Of a DNA stretch of 64,000 nucleotides, positions 21,665 to 34,683 are shown in pieces. Position 1 is the stretch's first letter, and every line of letters begins with the position of its first letter. Origin of the DNA: Tumebacillus sp. BK434 (GTDB lineage: Bacteria > Bacillota > Bacilli > Tumebacillales > Tumebacillaceae); NCBI RefSeq assembly GCF_004340785.1, contig NZ_SLXS01000004.1:310001-374000 (forward strand), written 5' to 3'. The position numbers and the translations under genes are program-made. Under the pieces are notes generated by a model. It was not told the origin of the DNA. It was given only the letters and a program-made list of their open reading frames with translations, and made no database searches.

Positions 21665-22324
21665 TTACTTCCCGAGTGCGGCGATCCGATCTGACTCATA
21701 GATGTTCGCCCCGCTTTGTCCAGTCTGCGCCACCTCGATCATCGCAGCCGCCACTGTGCGCCCGTGAATGGGCTTGTATTTGGCTGGAATCAGCGGTTTG
21801 AGCGCTATCGATACCACCGCCCCGAACTGCTCACCCAGACGGAACTCCTTGCGTTCTCCGAGCAGCAGCGAAGGGCGGAAGATGTGCAGCGAAGGGAGGT
21901 CAAGGGCGCGGATGTCGTTCTCCACCTGGCCTTTGACTTGGTTGTAGAAAATAGAAGACTTCGCGTTTGAACCCATCGCCGTGATGATGAGGAATTTGTC
22001 TACACCGTGCTCCTTGGCGAGACGTGCCAGCTCAAGCGGGTAGGTGTAGTCGACCTTGCGGAACGCTTCTTTCGTCTTGGCGACCTTGATCGTGGTGCCG
22101 AGGCAGCAGAAGAGATCGTTGACGTTGAAGTGTTCGCTGTAAGCCGAGAGATTGTCGAAATCGACCACGACCTGCTCCAACTTCGCATGCGAGTGGGGCA
22201 GGGGCTTGCGGACGAAGATGGTTACGTTGGAGTATGTATCGTTGCTCAGGAGCTGGGTCAGCACATGACCACCTACAAGGCCGCTGGCACCGATGAGGAG
22301 GGCAGATTTTTTTGTTGATGTCAT
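21665..22324 (-). CDS. NAD(P)H-binding oxidoreductase (atypical SDR, HTATIP2/YwnB-like)
   Basis: 219 residues. The Rossmann motif ALLIGASGLVGGHVLTQLL (~8-26) is followed by YTYPLELARLAKEHGVDKFL and ITAMGSNAKSSIFYNQVKG, matching the atypical short-chain dehydrogenases that bind NADPH but often act in signalling or assembly. The active Tyr/Lys pair of classic SDRs appears as YNQVKG. Function is unknown. It lies 12 bases downstream of the DUF6602 gene on the same strand, at the edge where base composition changes. Confidence 0.82.
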   Translation of the reverse strand: MTSTKKSALLIGASGLVGGHVLTQLLSNDTYSNVTIFVRKPLPHSHAKLEQVVVDFDNLSAYSEHFNVNDLFCCLGTTIKVAKTKEAFRKVDYTYPLELARLAKEHGVDKFLIITAMGSNAKSSIFYNQVKGQVENDIRALDLPSLHIFRPSLLLGERKEFRLGEQFGAVVSIALKPLIPAKYKPIHGRTVAAAMIEVAQTGQSGANIYESDRIAALGK

Positions 22325-22336
22325 CTCTTTATCACC

Positions 22337-23128
22337 TCAGAGTAGACTTCTTTTCAAGAACTTTCTTGATTCTTTCTCATCAGGATACCAAAGTCTTCCT
22401 GAAACCTTACTATCCATTGTGTTTAGTAGGTTAGATACGAAGAAGTTAAACGATTTTTCTTCAGTATTGTAGATACCGAACTCAGGATGACGTTGATTTT
22501 TCCAGTGGAGGCCGTACAACTGTTGGTTTATACAGAAAGAAGACAGAGAGTATTTGCGTAAGAACATTTCTTTTGAAACTGTAGAACGGCTGTTTAGTTC
22601 TTCGAACTTTCTTATGTAGAACTCTGATATTCGAGTAACGATATGCTCACTAACACCGTGCATACTTTTTGTTTCAATATCTTTATAGTCGTATGCAAAA
22701 ATTGCTGTGTATACATCATTAGTATCATCGTTCAGTATAGTTTGGGCAGAGTACAGATTTTCAAATGCACTTTCTCTTTGAGTCTTGTAGTAAATGTCTG
22801 TCTTTACTTCGATCACAGCTTTGACATAATGTCGAGGTACGATTACAAATTCGGAAGACCTAAAAATTACTGGCGATGCATTGTCATAAATCAAAATATC
22901 GATTTGTTTACTCGAAGAATTTCCTGAGTCGTCGATAATAAAGCCTGAGCCAATCTCGTATTTACTAGGTAAAAACTTCCGCAAGGTTTCACGCAGAATT
23001 GCCTCTTTGTGTGACCCATCCGACGCCCAATGCGTTTCTCCAATTAAGTTTCGAACCCTATTCTTCGTTGTGTTTAATTCTTCAGCAAAACTTCTGAAAT
23101 AATTGGGGAGATCCCTTACTATAGACAT
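22337..23128 (-). CDS. DUF6602-type protein (nuclease-like fold, accessory island)
   Basis: 263 residues resembling DUF6602 proteins found in restriction and defence neighbourhoods. The pattern GSGFIIDDSGNSSSKQIDIL and YVKAVIEVKTD (D-x-n-E-x-K) looks like a PD-(D/E)xK nuclease core: Asp in QIDIL (~76) and E-V-K in VIEVKT (~110). Codon use is clearly more A+T-rich than the flanking core genes. Its ATG directly follows the TAA of the upstream membrane-hydrolase gene (no intervening base), so the two are translationally coupled. The biological role is not known. Confidence 0.65.
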   Translation of the reverse strand: MSIVRDLPNYFRSFAEELNTTKNRVRNLIGETHWASDGSHKEAILRETLRKFLPSKYEIGSGFIIDDSGNSSSKQIDILIYDNASPVIFRSSEFVIVPRHYVKAVIEVKTDIYYKTQRESAFENLYSAQTILNDDTNDVYTAIFAYDYKDIETKSMHGVSEHIVTRISEFYIRKFEELNSRSTVSKEMFLRKYSLSSFCINQQLYGLHWKNQRHPEFGIYNTEEKSFNFFVSNLLNTMDSKVSGRLWYPDEKESRKFLKRSLL

Positions 23129-24153: not shown

Positions 24154-24552
24154 ATGAAAAAAGTGGATGTAGTTGGTGCCATAATTGTGAATGAAAAAAA
24201 AGAAGTGCTGTGCGCACTTCGTTCTCAAAATATGTCTTTACCGGGTCTTTGGGAATTTCCTGGTGGGAAAATTGAAGAGGGGGAAGATCCCAAGGACTCC
24301 TTGGTTAGAGAGATCAAAGAAGAGTTAGATTGCGAGATTGAGGTCGGTGATCTTGTAGTTGACGCAACACATGAGTATCCAACCGTTGTGGTGCGCCTCA
24401 TCACATACTTTGCAACAATTGTGCATGGGGAACCGAAAGCCAGTGAGCATGAAAAACTCACTTGGCTTTCAAAAAGTGAACTGAGTTCTCTTAACTGGGC
24501 CCCCGCTGATTTGCCGACTCTTGATCGTTTGGTCAATGAAGATTTATTGTAG
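24154..24552 (+). CDS. NUDIX (MutT-like) nucleoside triphosphate pyrophosphohydrolase
   Basis: 132 residues with a complete Nudix box, GGKIEEGEDPKDSLVREIKE followed by EL (~36-57), and the MutT-type start VVGAIIVNEKKEVLCALRS and LWEFPGGK. Members hydrolyse oxidised or other (deoxy)nucleoside triphosphates to monophosphates. RBS GGGAGGAAG is before the ATG. It is convergent with the 1063-residue helicase, with only 5 bases between the two stop codons. From memory, small MutT-type enzymes recur next to DUF3427 helicases, which suggests that they work together. Confidence 0.9.
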   Translation: MKKVDVVGAIIVNEKKEVLCALRSQNMSLPGLWEFPGGKIEEGEDPKDSLVREIKEELDCEIEVGDLVVDATHEYPTVVVRLITYFATIVHGEPKASEHEKLTWLSKSELSSLNWAPADLPTLDRLVNEDLL

Positions 24553-24557
24553 ATCAA

Positions 24558-27500
24558 TTATCGAATCAAATCGTTGAAAATCTCATCTGGTACCTGTGAT
24601 TGAAGTCGCCACTTGATATTCATCGGTTTGTCACCATGACTACTGACATAGTCCATCTCACCAAGATACATAAAGGGAAGAGTCATACCATGCATTTTTG
24701 CGAACTTACGTACAAAAAGATGTATGTGTATGCCTCTTTCTTTATTGTGAATGTAATTTTGTCCAACTTTAGATTTATGGGTAGTCTTAGGCTGACTTTG
24801 CCAATGGAAGTTCTGTTGATCGATAAAGTAATCCTCATAATTAAGATGATCTGCAGTTCCTTCATCCTTAATTAGAGTTACAAAGAGAAGATAATTATTA
24901 CCCACCTGTCTAACGCCTTCACGCCATGAACTTTTTGTAACCGTGACTTGAAACAGGAACATTAGATCACTACGAGTGTAGTTTTGATGGAGCATGATGC
25001 CATTCTGGTTACTAAGAGTTAGCTCTGGGCGGTGAGTTCGTCTAAACTCAGTAAGCCCGAAATTAAATCGTTCCCTGATATATTTCCCGTTCCTTTCTGA
25101 ATCCATTGCGTGCTTGATTGGCTCTTCAAGGCTGAACGTATCATTCAACACACGACCGAACGACCACTTGAATTTGGATTGTTCCTCAGACAATCTTTCC
25201 ATCGCCCGAACAACATATGGTTTATGTTGTTCAGCGGTAACAGGGACTCGGAAACGACGCTGTAATTCAGTAAGCACTTGAGGCACTTGTACTTCTTCGT
25301 GTTGAAACGCGAGTTCCAAAATGATGAATTCATACGGCCACTTTAACGGAAACATCCTTTCGAGACGCTGAATGATCTGAAGCGCCAAATGATCTTCCAG
25401 CAAAGCGGAGTCGAACTCATTTAGATCCTTCATACGTTTCTTAGTCTCCACCCATGAACCGAACCTTCTTACAAAATAGAAAAGGCTAGGTGCTTGCTCG
25501 TTGTAGAGAAAATCCACTAGTTCTGGGGAACGACCGAGTTCTTTTCTAAATTGAAAGTACAAGTCGGTCAGCAATTGGATGTTATTCATACGTACTTGAT
25601 CTAGTTTTTCAAGAATTTGTTGACGAGATATTTCTTCAAGATCCACGTAACACCCCTCCGGAAGTTCAGAGAACTCGTTCTCTACTGCCTTACGTAAGGA
25701 TTCACGATCAAAAGCTCTGTGGTTTGTTTGTCCTGACAATGCTAGTGGAACAACAAAAGATTTCTTGTAGTTACCAATAAAGTCTAAAACAGTAACGTAT
25801 TCTTTGCCGTCGATTTTTCTTAGTCCACGTCCTAACTGTTGAATAAAAATAGTTGCAGACTCCGTAGGGCGTAGGAAGAGAAGTACGTTGAGTTTTGGAA
25901 TATCAATGCCTTCGTTAAAGATATCAACGGTGAAAATGATCTGCAGTGGGTCATGGTCGTCTTCCAATCGCGCGATGATTTTCTGGCGCGCTTTGGGGTC
26001 ATCATTCCCGGTTAAGCAGGCTGCGTGATAGCCAATTTTATTGAATTCGTCTGTCATGAACTTTGCATGGTCAACATTTGCACAAAAGCCCAGTGCAACA
26101 AGTCGGTCCCCATCGTACCCGAATTTCTCGATCATATCTTTAATGTACTCTACACGTTCGTTTGTCTTAAGAGCATGGACGAGAGAGGCTTCTTCAAAAA
26201 AGCCATTCTGTTGCTCGATCTCGTTATAATCTATGGTTGGGTCATTCAGTCCAAAATAATGAAAGGGAGCAAGAAGTTCATTCTCTAAGGCTTGATGTAG
26301 ACGTATCTCGTAGACGACATTAAAGTCACACAATGCTAGCACATCTCGGCCATCCATGCGTTCGGGTGTTGCAGTCAATCCGAGTAAAAACATCGGTTGG
26401 AAGTGATCAAGTACCTTCCGATATGTTTCGGCCTGTGCATGGTGAAACTCGTCCACGATGATGTAGTCGAAATGGTCGTGGGGAAATTGGGCCAATGTCT
26501 CAGCGCGATGCATGGTCTGAACCGTGCTGAATAAGAACGGTTTCTGAAGATTCTTTTCAGTTCCTGTAAGTTTACCGAAAAGATCATATGAACCGTAAAC
26601 TTCCGCAAAGGTCTCTTGGGCATTCATTAAAAGCTCGTCGCGATGAGCGAGAAATAACATGCGTTTTGCCTGAAATTGATGAACATCAAACGCGGACAAA
26701 TACGTTTTCCCTGTGCCGGTAGCGGCAATGACAACGCCTTTGTCATTTCCGTCTTTTCGCGTGTTTTGGAGTGCTGCTAGGGCTTTTTGTTGCATCAGAT
26801 TAGGCTCAATTTTACGATGGAGTTGTTCACCATATTGGGCGGATGGTTCAGCGACAAGTGGTGTTTCGAAAGGTTTAAATTTTTCTCTTCGAGATGAGGC
26901 AATTTTTCCAGCTTCATATTGAATCTTGTAGCTTTCTAAAAGTGATGGTGTAACAGGAATGGCACGGGGGTCATTCCACATTTCTTCGAAGACTTTGGAT
27001 GCTTTTGAATATATCGGAATATGTGGAAGGTCAGGGAGTTTAACATTCCATTCATATCCGTCCACAAAAGCAGCGCGCGAAATATTGGAGGAGCCAATGA
27101 TTCCTGTGCTTAAGTCTGAGTTGCGACTAAACAAATACGCTTTTGTGTGAAAAGATTTATGCCCAGAATCGAAAATCTTGACTTCGACATTCTCTAATTC
27201 GAGAAGTCGTTCAAGGGCTTTTGGCTCTGTATAGTTAAGGTACGTTGAGGTTAAGACACGAATCGGTTTCTTGTTTGCGAGAAGCTGGTCAAATGGTCGC
27301 AAGAGCAATTGCAAACCTTTCCATCGAATAAAACTGACCATAAGATCGGCACGATCGGTGGACTGCAGTTCAAATTTTATAGTTTTGTATAAGTTTCGCT
27401 TCCCGACTCCATAGTTTGTAATCAGCTGCGAAGTTGTGAGGAACATATCTGAGTAGTCTGGAATAAAGCGGTCTTCATTACTATAATGGATCGATTGCAG

Positions 27501-27749
27501 CGGCAGGTCGTATTCTGTTACAGATTCATTAAGTTGCTGTTTAAGAGTGGTGACTAACTGAAACATTTGATCGTAGTTAGAGTCTTCGGCTAGTTTATAG
27601 AGGCGTTGACCGATCTCGGTTGAGATCTGTTGAATCAGAGCATCAGCATATGCTTTGGGGTGTAGAGGATTCGATTTATTATTCTCAGGATAAGATTTTC
27701 CTTTTTGTTTCAATTCTTCGAATAGCCCAGAGTTATCGTAAACGGTCAT
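24558..27749 (-). CDS. PLD-nuclease / DEAD-DEAH helicase / DUF3427 fusion, probable defence protein
   Basis: 1063 residues. The N-terminal third has a phospholipase-D-like nuclease signature: HTKAYLF (HxK, ~200) and GSSNISRAAF. A superfamily 2 helicase follows: Walker A AATGTGKT (~340), DEFH box IIVDEFHHA (~437), motif III GLTATPERM (~458) and motif VI QQLGRGLR (~640). The C-terminal ~270 residues fit DUF3427. This layout (HKD nuclease plus SSL2-like helicase) is typical of mobile defence islands and is thought to act on foreign DNA. Base composition is A+T-rich. RBS AGAGGAGAG is placed well and a TATAAT box lies at 27785-27790 on the minus strand. Confidence 0.88.
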   Translation of the reverse strand: MTVYDNSGLFEELKQKGKSYPENNKSNPLHPKAYADALIQQISTEIGQRLYKLAEDSNYDQMFQLVTTLKQQLNESVTEYDLPLQSIHYSNEDRFIPDYSDMFLTTSQLITNYGVGKRNLYKTIKFELQSTDRADLMVSFIRWKGLQLLLRPFDQLLANKKPIRVLTSTYLNYTEPKALERLLELENVEVKIFDSGHKSFHTKAYLFSRNSDLSTGIIGSSNISRAAFVDGYEWNVKLPDLPHIPIYSKASKVFEEMWNDPRAIPVTPSLLESYKIQYEAGKIASSRREKFKPFETPLVAEPSAQYGEQLHRKIEPNLMQQKALAALQNTRKDGNDKGVVIAATGTGKTYLSAFDVHQFQAKRMLFLAHRDELLMNAQETFAEVYGSYDLFGKLTGTEKNLQKPFLFSTVQTMHRAETLAQFPHDHFDYIIVDEFHHAQAETYRKVLDHFQPMFLLGLTATPERMDGRDVLALCDFNVVYEIRLHQALENELLAPFHYFGLNDPTIDYNEIEQQNGFFEEASLVHALKTNERVEYIKDMIEKFGYDGDRLVALGFCANVDHAKFMTDEFNKIGYHAACLTGNDDPKARQKIIARLEDDHDPLQIIFTVDIFNEGIDIPKLNVLLFLRPTESATIFIQQLGRGLRKIDGKEYVTVLDFIGNYKKSFVVPLALSGQTNHRAFDRESLRKAVENEFSELPEGCYVDLEEISRQQILEKLDQVRMNNIQLLTDLYFQFRKELGRSPELVDFLYNEQAPSLFYFVRRFGSWVETKKRMKDLNEFDSALLEDHLALQIIQRLERMFPLKWPYEFIILELAFQHEEVQVPQVLTELQRRFRVPVTAEQHKPYVVRAMERLSEEQSKFKWSFGRVLNDTFSLEEPIKHAMDSERNGKYIRERFNFGLTEFRRTHRPELTLSNQNGIMLHQNYTRSDLMFLFQVTVTKSSWREGVRQVGNNYLLFVTLIKDEGTADHLNYEDYFIDQQNFHWQSQPKTTHKSKVGQNYIHNKERGIHIHLFVRKFAKMHGMTLPFMYLGEMDYVSSHGDKPMNIKWRLQSQVPDEIFNDLIR

Positions 27750-27956
27750 GTGTGAGTACTCTCCTCTTGCTCTGTGTAGACAAAATTATAACAGCAGCTC
27801 TCTATAGATTAACTTTACGAAGAACTACTCTCAATACCCTTTTTGTCATTCTAAGATCAAAGAGGTTTTATTTGCGTATTTGCAATCTTATTTATTTCAT
27901 AGCAAATCAAAATATGGTATCTTTGACTGTGTATATTTTTGTTAGGAGGGGTGCGC

Positions 27957-29267
27957 ATGGAAGAAATCAAGGTCGAATCATTAGGAGAGAAGATCCGTCG
28001 TCTTCGATTAGAAAAAGGTATGAGTCAATCGGATGTTGCTGATGGTTTTGTGACAATATCAATGATCAGCCAACTCGAACGCGACAAGAATACCGCTTCT
28101 GTAGAGCTGCTTACCCATATAGCAAAAAAGTTACAGGTGCCGCTCCACGTGTTAGTTCAAGATGAAATTGATCAGATGGAGGTTGTGAATCGCCATAAGT
28201 TAGCAAAGGTTTATTTGGAGATAGGGGAATCTATCGAGGCTGAAAAGTTGTTGATCGTTTTACATCAAGAGCCCGGTATTTCACAAGTGGACTCAATCGA
28301 TATTACCATCGACTTAGCAGAAAGCCTGCACCAGCAAACGAAATATGATGACACGATGGAATTATTATTGCCATTGATTACTCATTTGGAGAGTGTCAAT
28401 TACGATAACGTACATACTTTAGCATTAATCAGAAAACGAATCGGAAACGTCCATCTACAGAAGCAGGAGCTTACCCCAGCTTACTATAACTATCAGAAAG
28501 CTTTCGATTTAACATTCCAGTTCGCAATTTTTGACCAGTTAGCTGCGCAAATCTCCTTCAATCTTGGGAAAGTTTTGCGCATGAAAGGATTGCATCAACA
28601 ATCTCTTTTTTATTTTGAGAAAGCCGGTGACTACTATTTACGGTCGCAAGACATTAGACATTTAGCAGATACAATGTTTGTACAAGCAAAAGCGTATAAT
28701 ACGGCACACCAGCATAAGCGAGCTTCCGAACTTTTTAGTGATGCATACCATTTATATAAGTTTCTAAATCTATCCTCCCTATCTATGCAGGTGCAACATA
28801 ACATTGCGGTCCTTGTAACGCTCAAAGAAGACACGGAGAAAGCATTAGCTCATTTGTGTGAGTGTGCAAACTTTTATTTTACTGAGGGGGATTACAGGAA
28901 TTACGTACTAGCAATATCTAAAATCGCAGAGATTGAGTTTACAAACGATTTGGAGAAAGCGAAGGACTTGTTAGATCAAGCGACCGAGCAGATCAATCAA
29001 AATTCACTCCAAAGGACTGTTGAAGAAGCCTCTTTATTACGCACTTGGGCGAAGTTTTATTCTATCAAGGGCAACGATGCGAAGTGCATTGAATATGCAT
29101 TAAAATCGGCCGAATTATTTGGTATAATTGGGGTAATTATTGAAGAGATTGAATCGCTTGACATTGTAGGGGACGTTTATCATCGTCTGGGGAATTTCGA
29201 AGCGGCATATAAAGTGGAACGAAGACGGAATTTGCTTTACAAAGATTTGCACGACCGGGGGAGATGA
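27957..29267 (+). CDS. XRE-HTH/TPR transcriptional regulator of RRNPP (peptide-sensing) type
   Basis: 436 residues. An N-terminal XRE helix-turn-helix (GEKIRRLRLEKGMSQSDVAD, then ISQLERDKNTASVELLTHIA) spans ~10-65. The rest is helical and arranged as about eight or nine TPR-like repeats (for example YYNYQKAFDLTFQFAIFDQL and SLFYFEKAGDYYLRSQDIRH). This plan is that of PlcR, NprR and Rap-type receptors that bind re-imported signalling peptides. The start is the ATG after AGGAGGGG. The gene for a 39-residue exported peptide begins 6 bases after its stop, and both end at one terminator. Confidence 0.88.
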   Translation: MEEIKVESLGEKIRRLRLEKGMSQSDVADGFVTISMISQLERDKNTASVELLTHIAKKLQVPLHVLVQDEIDQMEVVNRHKLAKVYLEIGESIEAEKLLIVLHQEPGISQVDSIDITIDLAESLHQQTKYDDTMELLLPLITHLESVNYDNVHTLALIRKRIGNVHLQKQELTPAYYNYQKAFDLTFQFAIFDQLAAQISFNLGKVLRMKGLHQQSLFYFEKAGDYYLRSQDIRHLADTMFVQAKAYNTAHQHKRASELFSDAYHLYKFLNLSSLSMQVQHNIAVLVTLKEDTEKALAHLCECANFYFTEGDYRNYVLAISKIAEIEFTNDLEKAKDLLDQATEQINQNSLQRTVEEASLLRTWAKFYSIKGNDAKCIEYALKSAELFGIIGVIIEEIESLDIVGDVYHRLGNFEAAYKVERRRNLLYKDLHDRGR

Positions 29268-29273
29268 TAAGAA

Positions 29274-29393
29274 ATGAAAAAGTTGATACTTGCTTGTCTG
29301 TTAGTTGGAGTTTTGTTTATAGGTGTGGATCATTCTATAACGAACGCTGCTGAGGTACTCCCTGAACCGGGTCCACATATCATAGCAAAATGA
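29274..29393 (+). CDS. Putative exported signalling (Phr/PapR-like) peptide precursor
   Basis: 39 residues, too short for most gene finders. A KK-start and hydrophobic core (KKLILACLLVGVLFIG) form a Sec signal peptide, with a likely cleavage after ITNAA, leaving the C-terminal EVLPEPGPHIIAK. The gene follows the RRNPP-type regulator by 6 bases and is closed by a perfect terminator 6 bases after its stop, the standard layout of receptor-pheromone cassettes. The mature signal would be a part of the C-terminal 13 residues. The peptide is not one I recognise. Confidence 0.75.
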   Translation: MKKLILACLLVGVLFIGVDHSITNAAEVLPEPGPHIIAK

Positions 29394-29399
29394 TTTTAG

Positions 29400-29428
29400 C
29401 CGTAGCACAAAGTGCTACGGGTTTTTTA
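29400..29428 (+). terminator. Terminator of the regulator-peptide unit
   Basis: A perfect 9-bp stem CCGTAGCAC (29400-29408) / GTGCTACGG (29412-29420) with a 3-base loop is followed by GTTTTTTATT. Confidence 0.93.
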
Positions 29429-29549
29429 TTCCCCAGGAACTGCTTTTTTAGTAGTGTAATCCTCATAGGGATATTGACTAACAACTATGGAATGTTGGCG
29501 AAATTTGATAGTCCGTTGAATATGAACTGTCGATTCGAATTCAGTATAA

Positions 29550-29717
29550 ATAATTATTCAGGTTCCAGAACCGAATCCGGAGATTGACTCCTACATCTGG
29601 CCCACATTATCTTGGGCATCCTATGTAAATGGTGGCACGAAAATTATTGCTAAGTTACAGTTGAAAGAGAGTGGAGGTCCACTCTCTTTCATATTTCTTA
29701 TTAGGGGGGATTTTTGA
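29550..29717 (+). pseudogene. Possible fragment of a relative of the signalling peptide gene
   Basis: An open frame without start codon or RBS reads VPEPNPEIDSYIWP and, further on, GGTKIIAKLQ. The peptide gene upstream has LPEPGP and IIAK in the same order, so both ends of the mature peptide seem to recur here, separated by ~20 extra residues. This suggests a decayed paralogue or the longer ancestral form. Between the terminator at 29428 and this frame nothing else is seen. Confidence 0.35.
29663..29690 (+). terminator. Hairpin between the peptide cassette and the lipoprotein gene
   Basis: A 13-base inverted repeat (29663-29675 and 29678-29690, GAAAGAGAGTGGA / TCCACTCTCTTTC) is followed by an AT-rich stretch. 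It looks like a terminator although no intact gene ends just before it. Confidence 0.65.
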
Positions 29718-30154
29718 TGCTAATGAGAATTAATTTTGTTCTGGCAATTGCACTTGCAGCTTTGTTGTTTGGATGTAGCGATCCTTCACCTCTCAAATCG
29801 GACCTTGAAGTCGCAATAAATCAAACATTTGGTATGCAATTCGACTATCTCGATCATGTCCAAGTTTTTAAAGTCGGGAACAACACTTTGGAGTCCCTTG
29901 CAGATATTAAGGGAGAGAATGTCCGTGGTATCATATTGACTCTTTCTAAAGCGAAATTGTCTGTGGAAGAGCCACTCCCCAAAACTTTCCCGTATAAAAT
30001 TGTTCTATCTACCTCACCTGAAGGATTGGAATACAATAAAAAGCAAACCACGGCCGATCTTCTAGTCTATCAGGAAGGAGAGGTAACTCATATTTCTTAC
30101 AACAACAGACATTACGTTTTGAAAGAGGATCTATCTTCTTATGGGATTGAATAA
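29717..30154 (+). CDS. Putative lipoprotein of unknown function
   Basis: 145 residues. A short signal peptide ends in a lipobox, LLFGC, at residues ~16-20, so the mature protein would be lipid-anchored on the outer face of the membrane. The remainder shows no family I recognise; it begins SDPSPLKSDLEVAINQTFGM. RBS AGGGGGGA lies 7 bases before the ATG. It is followed by a small membrane protein, perhaps in the same unit. The region remains A+T-rich. Confidence 0.72.
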   Translation: MLMRINFVLAIALAALLFGCSDPSPLKSDLEVAINQTFGMQFDYLDHVQVFKVGNNTLESLADIKGENVRGIILTLSKAKLSVEEPLPKTFPYKIVLSTSPEGLEYNKKQTTADLLVYQEGEVTHISYNNRHYVLKEDLSSYGIE

Positions 30155-30195
30155 CATCAAAGTTTTAAGGCTCATTCCGCTGGCAGGAGGTGTAA

Positions 30196-30459
30196 ATGAA
30201 ACATTCATTGATACTTTGGTCAGTCGTTTCCTTGGCCTATACAGTCCTCGCCGTGTTTCTCGGGATTACCCTAAAAGAAGAAATGATGATGCTTCTCTGG
30301 CTCTATCTGGTAATCGGGATTCCAATATTGATTGCTGCTTTGATACTGGTTGTACTCTATTTTACCGCTTCCCGTAAGGCGTTCTGGACGGTTTTTGGTC
30401 TCTTCGTCCTGTTTGGGGCGGGGATTATTGGATACGAGCTAATAACAGTTCCAAAGTAG
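30196..30459 (+). CDS. Small three-helix membrane protein of unknown function
   Basis: 87 residues with three hydrophobic segments (LILWSVVSLAYTVLAVFLGI; LLWLYLVIGIPILIAALILV; FWTVFGLFVLFGAGIIGYEL). RBS GGCAGGAGGTG is 6 bases before the ATG. It sits 41 bases after the lipoprotein gene and ends before a bidirectional terminator. No family assigned. Confidence 0.72.
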   Translation: MKHSLILWSVVSLAYTVLAVFLGITLKEEMMMLLWLYLVIGIPILIAALILVVLYFTASRKAFWTVFGLFVLFGAGIIGYELITVPK

Positions 30460-30465
30460 AAAATG

Positions 30466-30504
30466 AAAAGACTGAGTTCGTAGTAAACGAACTCAGTCTT
30501 TTTT
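30466..30504. terminator. Bidirectional terminator at the end of the accessory region
   Basis: A 15-bp perfect stem AAAAGACTGAGTTCG / CGAACTCAGTCTTTT (30466-30480 and 30488-30502) has a 7-base loop and T runs on both strands. The stop codon of the convergent CobW gene lies in the right arm. Confidence 0.92.
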
Positions 30505-31482
30505 GCATTCTTGGAGTTGCTCAATAATCCCAGCCTCATCCAAATCCTTCCCAATAAACACCGCAAACGCCCTTCCATTCCCATCGACATCCACAATAGC
30601 CGACATCGGTGCCCCAGGCTCGTAATGGAACTCGTGCAGCATGCCGTGCTCGGCGTCTTTATAGAACCCTTTTGCACGCAAGACGTTGTCCGGCAGAGCT
30701 CGCAAGAAATCGAAGAACTTCTCCTTATCCACCGCACCCTCAAACTCATAAGTAAACGTCTGCAAGTTCCCAAAGCTCGTCCGCTCGCGGGTCGTCGCCT
30801 TCACTTGCCCCACAGTGCGGCGGGAAATGCCTTTGGGCTTGGCAGAGGGCTTCTCTTTTGGCGTGGTTCGCACTCCCAGCAGTTCCACTGCATCTACCTC
30901 GCCCTTATACACCTGCAGCAGCGGCGCATCCCCGTTCAACTCCTGCAGCACCTTCTGCAACGCCTCCCAGTGCTCGGGCTTCACCAGATCGGTTTTGGAC
31001 ACCAGAATCGCATCGGCGTACTGCACCTGCTGGATCATCGTCCGCTCGTTCGCATCGAGTGAATCCGGAGAGAGATCCAGGGGGAAGCGTTTCGCGCTTA
31101 CGAGGGTGTAGATCCCTGCAAGGTGCATAAGATCGGCCAACTCTGGCTCCACCAGCGCTTCCACGAGGTCGACAGGAGAGGCTACCCCGGTGGTCTCAAG
31201 GAAGATCACGTTGGGCTTGTACTGCACGACCATCTGCTGCAGGGTGATTGACAGGCTGCCGCGCAGGGTGCAGCAGACGCAGCCTTCGAGCAGATCCATC
31301 ACGGGGACGGCGGAATTTTGCAGGAGAAGGGTGTCGACGCTTTCCGAGCCGAATTCGTTCATCAGCACGGCGGGGGTGCGTCCCTCTGCTTTGATGTGGC
31401 GAAGCAGGGTTTTCAAAAGGGTGGTTTTGCCGGCGCCGAGGTAGCCGGTCAGTATGTAAACGGGAATCGAAGTTGTGGTCAT
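30493..31482 (-). CDS. CobW/P47K-family G3E GTPase (metal chaperone)
   Basis: 329 residues. Walker A is GYLGAGKTTLL (~12-22), the metal-binding CxCC motif is GCVCCTLRG (~66-74), ETTGVASP is the switch region and SKTDLVKP replaces NKxD as the base-specificity motif. A C-terminal CobW_C domain (~235-325) is present. COG0523 GTPases deliver zinc or other metals to client enzymes. No Zur operator was seen in the 230-base upstream gap (31483-31713), where no gene is seen either. Confidence 0.9.
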   Translation of the reverse strand: MTTTSIPVYILTGYLGAGKTTLLKTLLRHIKAEGRTPAVLMNEFGSESVDTLLLQNSAVPVMDLLEGCVCCTLRGSLSITLQQMVVQYKPNVIFLETTGVASPVDLVEALVEPELADLMHLAGIYTLVSAKRFPLDLSPDSLDANERTMIQQVQYADAILVSKTDLVKPEHWEALQKVLQELNGDAPLLQVYKGEVDAVELLGVRTTPKEKPSAKPKGISRRTVGQVKATTRERTSFGNLQTFTYEFEGAVDKEKFFDFLRALPDNVLRAKGFYKDAEHGMLHEFHYEPGAPMSAIVDVDGNGRAFAVFIGKDLDEAGIIEQLQECKKD

Positions 31483-33068: not shown

Positions 33069-33509
33069 TTACGCCTCTACAATCTTCACAGACTTCATCT
33101 TATCGCCTTGCGCGATGCCATCGATGAACTCTTCACCGGAGATGATCTGACCAAACACGGTGTGGTTGCCGTCCAGGTGAGCGGTGGTCTTGCGGTCATG
33201 CACGATGAAGAACTGGGAACCGCCGGTGTTGCGGCCAGCGTGAGCCATGGACAGCGCGCCGCGCTGGTGCTGGTGCGGGTTGTCGATTACTTCGCACTTG
33301 ATGGTATAGCCCGGACCGCCGGTGCCGGTGCCTTGCGGGCAGCCGCCTTGAGCGACGAAGCCCGGGATGACGCGGTGGAACTTGAGGCCGTCGTAGAAGC
33401 CTTCGTTCGCCAGCTTTTCAAAGTTGGCTACGGTGCCCGGTGCATGGGTGTCAAACATTTCGAATTCCATGACGCCGCCGCGCTCGAGTTCGATGATTGC
33501 TTTTTTCAT
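33069..33509 (-). CDS. ppiB: Peptidyl-prolyl cis-trans isomerase (cyclophilin)
   Basis: 146 residues, a compact cytoplasmic cyclophilin. Typical motifs are [20 protein letters not shown] with the catalytic Arg (~43-62), [19 protein letters not shown] (~83-101) and [15 protein letters not shown] (~110-124). The chosen ATG is preceded by GAAAGGCAG. The open frame extends further upstream to 33953 but without signals and over a promoter region, so that extension is not used. Confidence 0.93.
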
Positions 33510-33711
33510 TATGTAGTCACTGCCTTTCGTTATGTGCTTGCTGCTTACTTCCCCATTATACACGAAAAGGCGCGTTGCCAAAAAGAGGAGCGGTTTTTCG
33601 AGCAGGGGGTCTGTCGAAATAAGTCGAAAGTAGGAGACAGAAACACGGCCCGATCTGCGAACTTTGTACATGTGCACGGGGAGACAGGGAGAAAGCAAGC
33701 AGGAGGAGATC

Positions 33712-34683
33712 ATGAAGAAAATCATCAAAGCATTGCCTTTGCTGGCGCTGGCAGCCATCGCTTTTCTGGCGCTGCCACAGACCTCGGAGGCGGCAAATGG
33801 AAACCCATTCAGTGATATTGACAACTCGTATGCCAAGAATGAAATTCTTTCGATGTACAGCAACCACATCATCCAAGGCTTTACGGACGGCACGTTCCGA
33901 CCGAAACAGCAGGTGACGCGGGCTGAGTTTGCGGCGATGCTGATCAACGCCAAGAAGCTGCCTCTGACAGACCCTTATAAAGGAGTGTTTCGCGACGTCC
34001 CGCGGGGAGAATGGTACACCACCTACGCGGAACTATCCTATCGGCTGGGCGTCACGAGTGGAACGGCCGACGGCGTGTTCCAACCTAATAAACCGTTGAG
34101 CCGGGAAGAGATGATCAAAATGACGGTCAGCGCCCTCGGCAAGGAATCGGAGACGGCGCGCAAGATGAGCTACACCGCCTATTCCCGCGCCGTCGCCGGT
34201 TACAGCGATCGCGGGAGCATCTCGTCCTGGGCGGTGAAAGCGGTGGCTTATGCGACCGACGCCGGGCTGATTCACGGCTCGGGCGGCAAAGTGGAGGCGA
34301 AGCGCTATGCCACGCGCGAGGAAGTGGCGACGTTCCTCTACCATTCGATCGTGCAGCGGCCGAAGCCGGGGAATGTGTTTAACATCTCGTCGCGCGGCGG
34401 GATGGGGCTGAACTACCACACGAAAAAAGCGACAGAAGCAACCGCCTACACGTACTCGGGCAACCCGGCGTACACGGGCATCATGCCGCGCGTCGGCATG
34501 GTCGCCGTCGACCCGGCACAGATTGCGCTCGGCTCGCATCTGTATATTCCAGGCTACGGCTACGGGATCGCAGGCGACACGGGCGGCGCGATTAAGAATC
34601 TGCGAGTCGATCTGTTCCATCCGGATTATTACTCGGCTACCCTGTTTGGACGCAAGGCGATGGATGTCTATATTTTGGACTAG
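33712..34683 (+). CDS. SLH-domain cell-wall protein with C-terminal 3D domain
   Basis: 323 residues. A signal peptide (cut near SEAA, ~28) is followed by three SLH repeats (~32-85, ~90-150, ~155-210; for example [20 protein letters not shown]). The C-terminal ~85 residues form a 3D domain of the MltA/RpfB double-psi barrel kind, with three Asp: [20 protein letters not shown] and VDLFHP. Such domains occur in lytic transglycosylase-like germination and wall-turnover proteins. RBS GCAGGAGGAG is 5 bases before the ATG. Confidence 0.88.

Follow-up and report, generated by a model that had tools for sequence, protein, structure and literature searches.

Does the XRE-HTH/TPR regulator gene of the soil bacterium Tumebacillus sp. 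BK434 form a receptor-pheromone pair with the small exported open reading frame (ORF) directly behind it, and does its location next to a restriction gene bear on what such a pair controls? The window, i.e., the whole stretch of DNA that was analyzed, comprises 64,000 nucleotides (contig NZ_SLXS01000004.1, positions 310,001 to 374,000, forward strand), and coordinates without a locus name are positions in it. Loci are numbered with the prefix L and genomes with the prefix G, the genome of BK434 being G000. The cassette and its upstream region contain the following features:

27750 to 27956, no strand assigned, divergent intergenic region common to the restriction gene and the receptor gene, with the promoter and ribosome-binding site of the latter
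27957 to 29267, plus strand, RRNPP-type receptor gene (436 aa) with an N-terminal XRE HTH and nine TPR helix pairs
29274 to 29393, plus strand, propeptide gene (39 aa) with a Sec-type signal and the tail EVLPEPGPHIIAK, starting 6 bases past the receptor stop
29400 to 29420, plus strand, intrinsic terminator with a perfect 9-bp stem and a T tail

The receptor ORF begins with ATG at 27957, has AGGAGG at 27944-27949 and a stop codon ending at 29267. A previous reading of the letters alone (the sequence-only reading) had named it an XRE-HTH/TPR regulator, which is borne out by profile matches to HTH_3 (E 1.2e-9) and TPR_12 (E 4.1e-15) and by an AlphaFold2 model (pLDDT 91.2) with a five-helix HTH followed by 18 helices, i.e., nine TPR pairs. 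The solved structure closest to this model was that of a Rap with its pheromone (8rsv, Z 28.8), and NprR matched in its apo form (5dbk, Z 28.2 over 344 residues) and as NprR-NprX (4gpk, Z 27.1), while the alignment of PlcR (Z 20.6) was limited to residues 6-286. Generic eukaryotic TPR proteins came within about two Z units of Rap and NprR (LGN up to 27.3), and the top matches in a viral fold library were mostly giant-virus TPR or other repeat proteins. In its modeled fold the protein resembles RRNPP receptors, although generic TPR proteins reach almost equal scores, and it has the C-terminal TPR domain, the N-terminal HTH and the resemblance to a solved RRNPP receptor by which such receptors are recognized. 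NprR was absent from its PDB matches at E ≤ 1 in a single-sequence search and from the 60 of 105 matches listed in a further search, and no plasmid relatives were found at 1e-5.

The 39-codon ORF 6 bases behind the regulator, its Sec signal and the perfect terminator that follows had all been proposed before, and each of them held up. The signal was classed as Sec-type from its charge and hydrophobicity and from the ribosome site, without a signal-peptide program (no SignalP). The propeptide matched NCBIfam Phr_nterm (17.4 bits, under the cut-off of 25) and AimP_fam (15 bits, under the cut-off of 35) only weakly. Upstream of the receptor gene, an extended -10 element (TG-G-TATCTT) is found at 27915-27923, and visual inspection revealed elements resembling it in front of several related receptor genes; beyond these, no operator motif was found in 27750-27956 or upstream of the related receptors. 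An RNA element was rejected, as none of three weak Rfam matches in 27300-31000 came close to the gathering score. Further downstream, a 13-bp inverted repeat with a T-rich tail (29662-29691), which is a terminator or attenuator, immediately precedes a lipoprotein-like ORF (29714-30154).

A small ORF behind a gene could arise by chance. Among the receptors scoring at least 150 bits, including that of the window, 26 of 28 are followed by an exported ORF of 30-90 aa that starts -10 to +30 nt from the stop, compared to 27 of 1400 shuffled controls. In the window's clade, which consists of 40 receptors (≥370 aa) from seven genomes of two genera, an exported ORF starting at -40 to +30 follows every receptor (40/40). 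A chance ORF is therefore rejected, and the absence of a small exported ORF behind orthologous regulators, which would have refuted the sequence-only reading, was not observed. Control genes also passed in 14 of 122 cases, 13 of which belong to a second receptor family (F2, described below) and one of which is a TPR fragment (L074). The receptor tree was built from 109 ORFs with a length of 370 aa or more (50 labeled with a peptide, 51 without and 8 not judged) and omits 28 of the 137 receptor ORFs as short or weak; among the truncated receptors of at least 200 bits that were omitted, 4 of 6 have a small ORF. The peptide label of L112, which is outside the window's clade in the tree, looks spurious.

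Conservation of the pair in all 40 members of the clade also speaks against the possibility that the small exported ORF does not encode the ligand of the receptor but a secreted antimicrobial or some small protein unrelated to it, with the regulator answering something else. The tails are rich in proline and glycine, 38 of the 40 fit the loose pattern [PGD]-x(0,2)-P-[LMHFKV] (without a chance control), and several contain a DPG motif. Tandem propeptides with two to five repeats are found within the clade (L003, L146 and L147) and outside it (L011 and L095), and repeated pheromone units in propeptides are known from RRNPP systems, as far as the accessible part of the source goes (PMC11343458). 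Three to five tandem copies of the presumed pheromone unit were noticed in L095, L011, L063, L146 and L147.

The tails co-diverge with the TPR domain of the receptor more than with its HTH domain. With the pairs of two shorter receptors excluded (38 of 40 remaining), tail distance correlated with TPR distance (r 0.52; 0.41 when partialled on HTH, p 0.00025), while the correlation with HTH distance, given TPR, was -0.04; with equal numbers of columns, the values were 0.325 (0.22-0.41) for tail-TPR and 0.079 for tail-HTH. The receptor blocks most strongly correlated with the tail are 224-295 and 404-439. Caution is needed in that the TPR columns evolve faster (mean distance 0.69 versus 0.52 for HTH). 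The signal half of the propeptide also tracks the TPR domain, though more weakly (r 0.32; 0.18 at equal columns given HTH), so part of the tail-TPR correlation reflects shared descent. When the receptor was folded by AlphaFold tethered to its propeptide, the tail was left unplaced (pLDDT 37-41), and the mature peptide is unknown. These last points leave some room for an ORF unrelated to the receptor, to which we nevertheless assign only a very slight probability, given the 40/40 conservation and a tail that follows the TPR rather than the HTH domain. Placement of the tail in the TPR groove is supported by the co-divergence, but binding has not been shown. We are highly confident that the two genes encode a receptor and its pheromone, in the absence of expression, binding or phenotype data.

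The proposed resemblance to PlcR-PapR and NprR-NprX needs to be divided: the nine-TPR architecture corresponds to that of NprR and Rap, whereas PlcR is a five-TPR receptor. NprR-NprX of the Bacillus cereus group shares the HTH and nine TPR pairs but has only ~13% identity to the window receptor. Its NprX peptide differs from the window peptide. Rap-Phr systems share the nine-TPR fold and have propeptides with repeated pheromone units, but Rap lost its HTH DNA-binding domain, according to the portion of the source at hand (PMC12700828). A similar organization is found in AloR-AloP of Paenibacillus polymyxa, in which an HTH-TPR receptor is followed by a short exported propeptide and a genome has many paralogous pairs, with some receptors lacking a peptide; unlike the cassettes described here, AloR-AloP was reported essentially only from Paenibacillaceae, and the available text of that paper mentions no association with defense loci (PMC7425212). 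Thus, the suggestion of a new quorum-sensing cassette stands for the receptor-peptide pair and its lineage but not for its kind, which was already known from Paenibacillus: the window cassette is a new lineage of a known RRNPP kind. The RRNPP_detector survey, in its accessible part, names Alicyclobacillaceae among the families with candidates beside biosynthetic clusters, so an earlier inclusion of the window's lineage is possible (PMC10075063). No paper on RRNPP together with Tumebacillus was found in the open-access collection searched.

The AimR-AimP arbitrium system and RRNPP_detector subfamily 08 also deserve comparison. AimR matched the receptor model over nearly its full length (Z 22.5), the propeptide signal sequence weakly resembles those of AimP and Phr, and peptides with a DPG motif, as in several tails here, are described in the available parts of two sources (PMC12700828, PMC10075063). 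Together with the location of the cassette among defense genes, the AimR match and the weak resemblance of the signal sequence could indicate that it senses infection or an incoming mobile element instead of host density, with the peptide released mainly during phage attack. AimR, however, is phage-borne, whereas the window receptor is chromosomal and the cassette occupies one site in 7/7 genomes of the family, and the phage records searched gave only six matches to the receptor, all of HTH length. Arbitrium-like sensing is therefore improbable in our judgment.

Of 398 genomes sampled across the class, 13 matched the receptor profile at 1e-50, and 12 of these 13 belong to the order of BK434. 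Receptor matches number 31 in the genome of BK434 and 31 and 62 in two congeners; 15 receptor-peptide pairs are found in BK434 (10 of the first family and 5 of F2, with peptide starts at -40 to +30) and 30 in G002 (24 and 6, respectively, excluding the TPR fragment with a peptide). A comparable number, 27 pairs, was reported for Paenibacillus terrae in the text accessible to us (PMC7425212). F2 is a second HTH receptor type of ~395 aa with degenerate repeats and its own exported peptide (with tails such as PPEPAGII), exemplified by L087:19-1207, L027, L102 and L211:14054-15229. Neither PDB sequences nor plasmids gave a match to it. F2 is distinct from the first family yet not wholly unrelated to it, as some members scored 20-25 bits against the profile of that family. 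Tandem F2-type receptor genes were also observed in the genome of BK434 (G000:C1:218202-223709), and no peptide ORF accompanies those among them that were read (L121-L124) by the criteria used.

In addition to the peptide-bearing receptors, the tree contains a clade B of 27 HTH-TPR regulators without a peptide, 26 of which adjoin a peptide-bearing receptor: 10 stand beside members of the window's clade and 16 beside F2 receptors (e.g., L008, with a minus-strand A and a plus-strand B, and L087). These regulators may act as second receptors or as output regulators. No clade B partner directly adjoins any member of the window's subclade of seven.

What the pair controls may be approached through its location, whose defense genes had escaped the sequence-only reading. 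The genes surrounding the cassette in the window are:

21665 to 22324, minus strand, left hotspot flank, oxidoreductase-like (same-site homologues in L211, 57%, L233, 76%, and L235, 56%)
22337 to 23128, minus strand, PD-(D/E)XK, NucC-like nuclease gene (PADLOC PD_DExK 91 bits; NucC-type 78 and 62 bits)
24154 to 24552, plus strand, NUDIX-type gene (PADLOC PDC-S07 173 bits)
24558 to 27749, minus strand, type IV methyl-directed restriction enzyme (mREase_IV), divergent neighbor of the receptor gene (PADLOC 466 bits, E 4e-140)
30493 to 31482, minus strand, right hotspot flank (same-site homologues in L167, 84%, and L170, 92%)
33069 to 34683, no strand assigned, right-flank marker genes (homologues in L167, L170, L211 and L229-L231)

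From its sequence we take the gene at 30493-31482 to encode a CobW-type GTPase, and the markers presumably encode a peptidyl-prolyl isomerase-like protein (minus strand) and an SLH-type protein (plus strand). The PADLOC match of the NUDIX-type gene was set aside as evidence for defense, since PDC-S07 also matched 2 of 147 control proteins.

The flank genes of the hotspot in the window were also found around this site in the remaining six genomes of the family, although only the right flank was examined in G002, and a receptor-peptide cassette is present at the site in all seven, beside differing cargo. The site receptor is of the window's type in G000, G001 and G002, while G003, G004, G005 and G006 have an F2 receptor, each with an exported peptide, and a clade-B-like regulator (assigned by score and not placed in the tree). 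The cargo is mREase_IV in G000 and G006, PDC-M33 in G001, type II restriction in G002, and DNA methyltransferase-like and other genes in G003-G005, where it was judged by eye from BLAST to the site loci and without PADLOC. The receptors of G001 and G002 are 50% identical, compared to 84-92% for the flanking cobW, so the receptors change faster than the site. At 1e-30, the mREase_IV model matched in only two of the seven genomes; the second mREase_IV (L211 of G006) has 635 identical residues versus the window's 1063, retains the NUDIX-type gene beside it in another genus (103 of 132 residues identical) and adjoins a cassette of the F2 plus clade-B-like type. The site is a defense hotspot that holds a receptor-peptide cassette. 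The seven occurrences are not seven independent events, because ancestry is common within each genus.

Defense genes were also found beside related cassettes elsewhere. Within the window's subclade, PADLOC identified PDC-M33A/B/C and Helicase_II at L167, a type II restriction enzyme at L170, Cas10 and Csx1 at L169, and Cas10d, Cas11d and Cas3d at L172; L168, with weak SIR2 and HNH matches only, and L171, which contains only the end of the I-D array, were not scored as positive. At L172, the type I-D cas operon is followed after ~82 bp by the receptor, the peptide and an array in which an 18-mer is present in 87 copies; at L169, the type III cas genes are followed after ~170 bp by the receptor, the peptide and an array with 24 copies. 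The large CRISPR array downstream of the type I-D cas operon extends over L172:11092-17499 and L171:52-3199, and another receptor locus is located ~6 kb beyond the distal end of the array. The cassette starts ~118 bp past Cas5a (type I-A) at L177 and ~110 bp past DpdA at L178; at both loci a hairpin with T's, recognized by eye, stands between the defense operon and the receptor, which are thus probably not part of one transcript. Among the other same-genus loci, at least 7 of 14 had a PADLOC match at E ≤ 1e-30, including PDC-M48B (L173), PDC-M26A (L174 and L175), LmuA of Lamassu with LmuB slightly further out (L180) and AriB with AriA of PARIS (L181). Seventeen further loci, all from the other genus except L228 (G002), contributed PDC-M26A (L218 and L226), SspE/Orf5-like and DndA-like matches (L221), a type III methyltransferase (L223) and further strong MTase_II and REase_II matches without locus assignment.

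Viewed from the defense genes, two of the three Cas3 loci accepted in the family have a clade-A receptor directly downstream, and at the third (L210) the receptor is of the F2 type, lies ~7 kb beyond Cas3 and lacks a peptide by the criteria used. One of two Cas10 loci detected by one type III model has a receptor; no receptor was found within the 20 kb examined at the type III cas locus L209 (G001). Seven other Cas3 matches (48-62 bits, one per genome, in frames of 724-987 aa) were set aside as probable housekeeping helicases because Bacillus subtilis matches too, while the type I-D gene of G002, which scored only 58 bits by that Cas3 model, was retained for its Cas3d score.

Compared to random loci, this association is only modestly enriched. 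At least 12 of the 21 same-genus loci had a PADLOC match at E ≤ 1e-30 versus at most 4 of 19 random loci (p 0.022, one-sided Fisher), and with all loci included the numbers were at least 16 of 38 versus at most 4 of 19 (p 0.10), leaving at most 22 of 38 loci without such a match. The counts for cassette loci are lower bounds, resting on the first 25 families listed per batch. The 21 loci omit the clade members L045, L058, L059 and L062, include a truncated receptor without a peptide (L186) and do not contain L067, which was counted as L228 among the 17 further loci. Of the 20 random loci, L199 had no ORF in the size range; the remaining 19 yielded at most 4 of 147 proteins at E ≤ 1e-30, one of which is presumably MutY-like, and location within a variable island is not controlled for by these loci.

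Hitchhiking of the cassette in a variable island is not excluded. The pair may be a genuine RRNPP pair that regulates itself or distant genes, such as sporulation genes or other cassettes, and its presence in the hotspot may reflect no more than that both are part of the rapidly changing fraction of the genome. The modest enrichment and the many related cassettes without a strong PADLOC neighbor are what such a pair would lead one to expect, and Alo13 of Paenibacillus was found to regulate spo0E and other alo genes, as reported in the accessible text (PMC7425212). Mere co-residence accounts less well, however, for a cassette at the same site in 7/7 genomes despite differing receptor family and cargo, for an mREase_IV/NUDIX block whose partner cassette is A-type in the window and F2-type in G006, or for a defense gene as the immediate neighbor in L169, L172, L177 and L178. 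We consider regulation of only itself or distant genes rather unlikely, though a serious alternative.

Our favored interpretation, which we hold to be probable without being certain, is that of an RRNPP-type quorum-sensing cassette that is self-contained and has its place in a defense hotspot, for which no expression, binding or phenotype data exist. The 39-aa propeptide would be exported by Sec and cleaved near the junction of ...NAA and EVLPEPGPHIIAK, and a short pheromone with a PGP core, derived from the tail, would accumulate with cell density. Re-entry may proceed through an oligopeptide permease, for which the genome of BK434 encodes eight PF00496 peptide-binding proteins as candidate components. 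Inside the cell, the pheromone is predicted to bind the concave face of the nine-TPR domain, in line with the tail-TPR co-divergence, and to alter binding of the HTH dimer at 27750-27956, which could switch both the operon of the cassette and the type IV restriction gene transcribed divergently from it; this last step is inferred from position, and the sign of regulation is unknown. Density-dependent control of defense is the most likely output on positional grounds, while for control of the adjacent defense genes by the cassette, also inferred from position and without expression data, the chances seem to us about even.

Quorum control of immunity is known from AHL systems, where the signal is an AHL and the regulators are encoded outside the defense locus. 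Density-dependent control of CRISPR-Cas adaptive immunity by quorum sensing is documented in the available part of an earlier study, from which the present case differs in that a peptide-receptor pair is encoded beside the defense genes (PMC5179492). The nearest idea found is the prediction, taken from the accessible text, that phage Rap-Phr systems lower host defenses (PMC8027211). Among the open-access titles and abstract beginnings listed for RRNPP or quorum sensing together with CRISPR or defense, none concerned peptide-receptor pairs inside defense loci (non-PMC preprints, most subscription papers, figures and supplements being outside this scope), nor do the available portions of two reviews from 2026 refer to any (PMC13220807, PMC13246641).

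Extended to the family as a whole, the observations are compatible with defense-associated quorum sensing based on two receptor lineages, of which one is often accompanied by a partner regulator of its own. Their cassettes, fixed at a defense hotspot and also occurring beside CRISPR and other defense loci, would switch immune systems, themselves interchangeable, according to population density, and pheromone type and cargo would change together; we offer this only tentatively, as a possibility that falls somewhat short of an even chance. The peptide-receptor pairs described here are encoded beside defense genes, at L169 and L172 between the cas genes and the array. If the link is functional, it would allow direct tests of how bacteria restrict the cost of immunity to crowded conditions, might account in part for the 15 to 30 candidate pheromone pairs in a single genome, and would make synthetic peptides a handle on the switching of defense systems.
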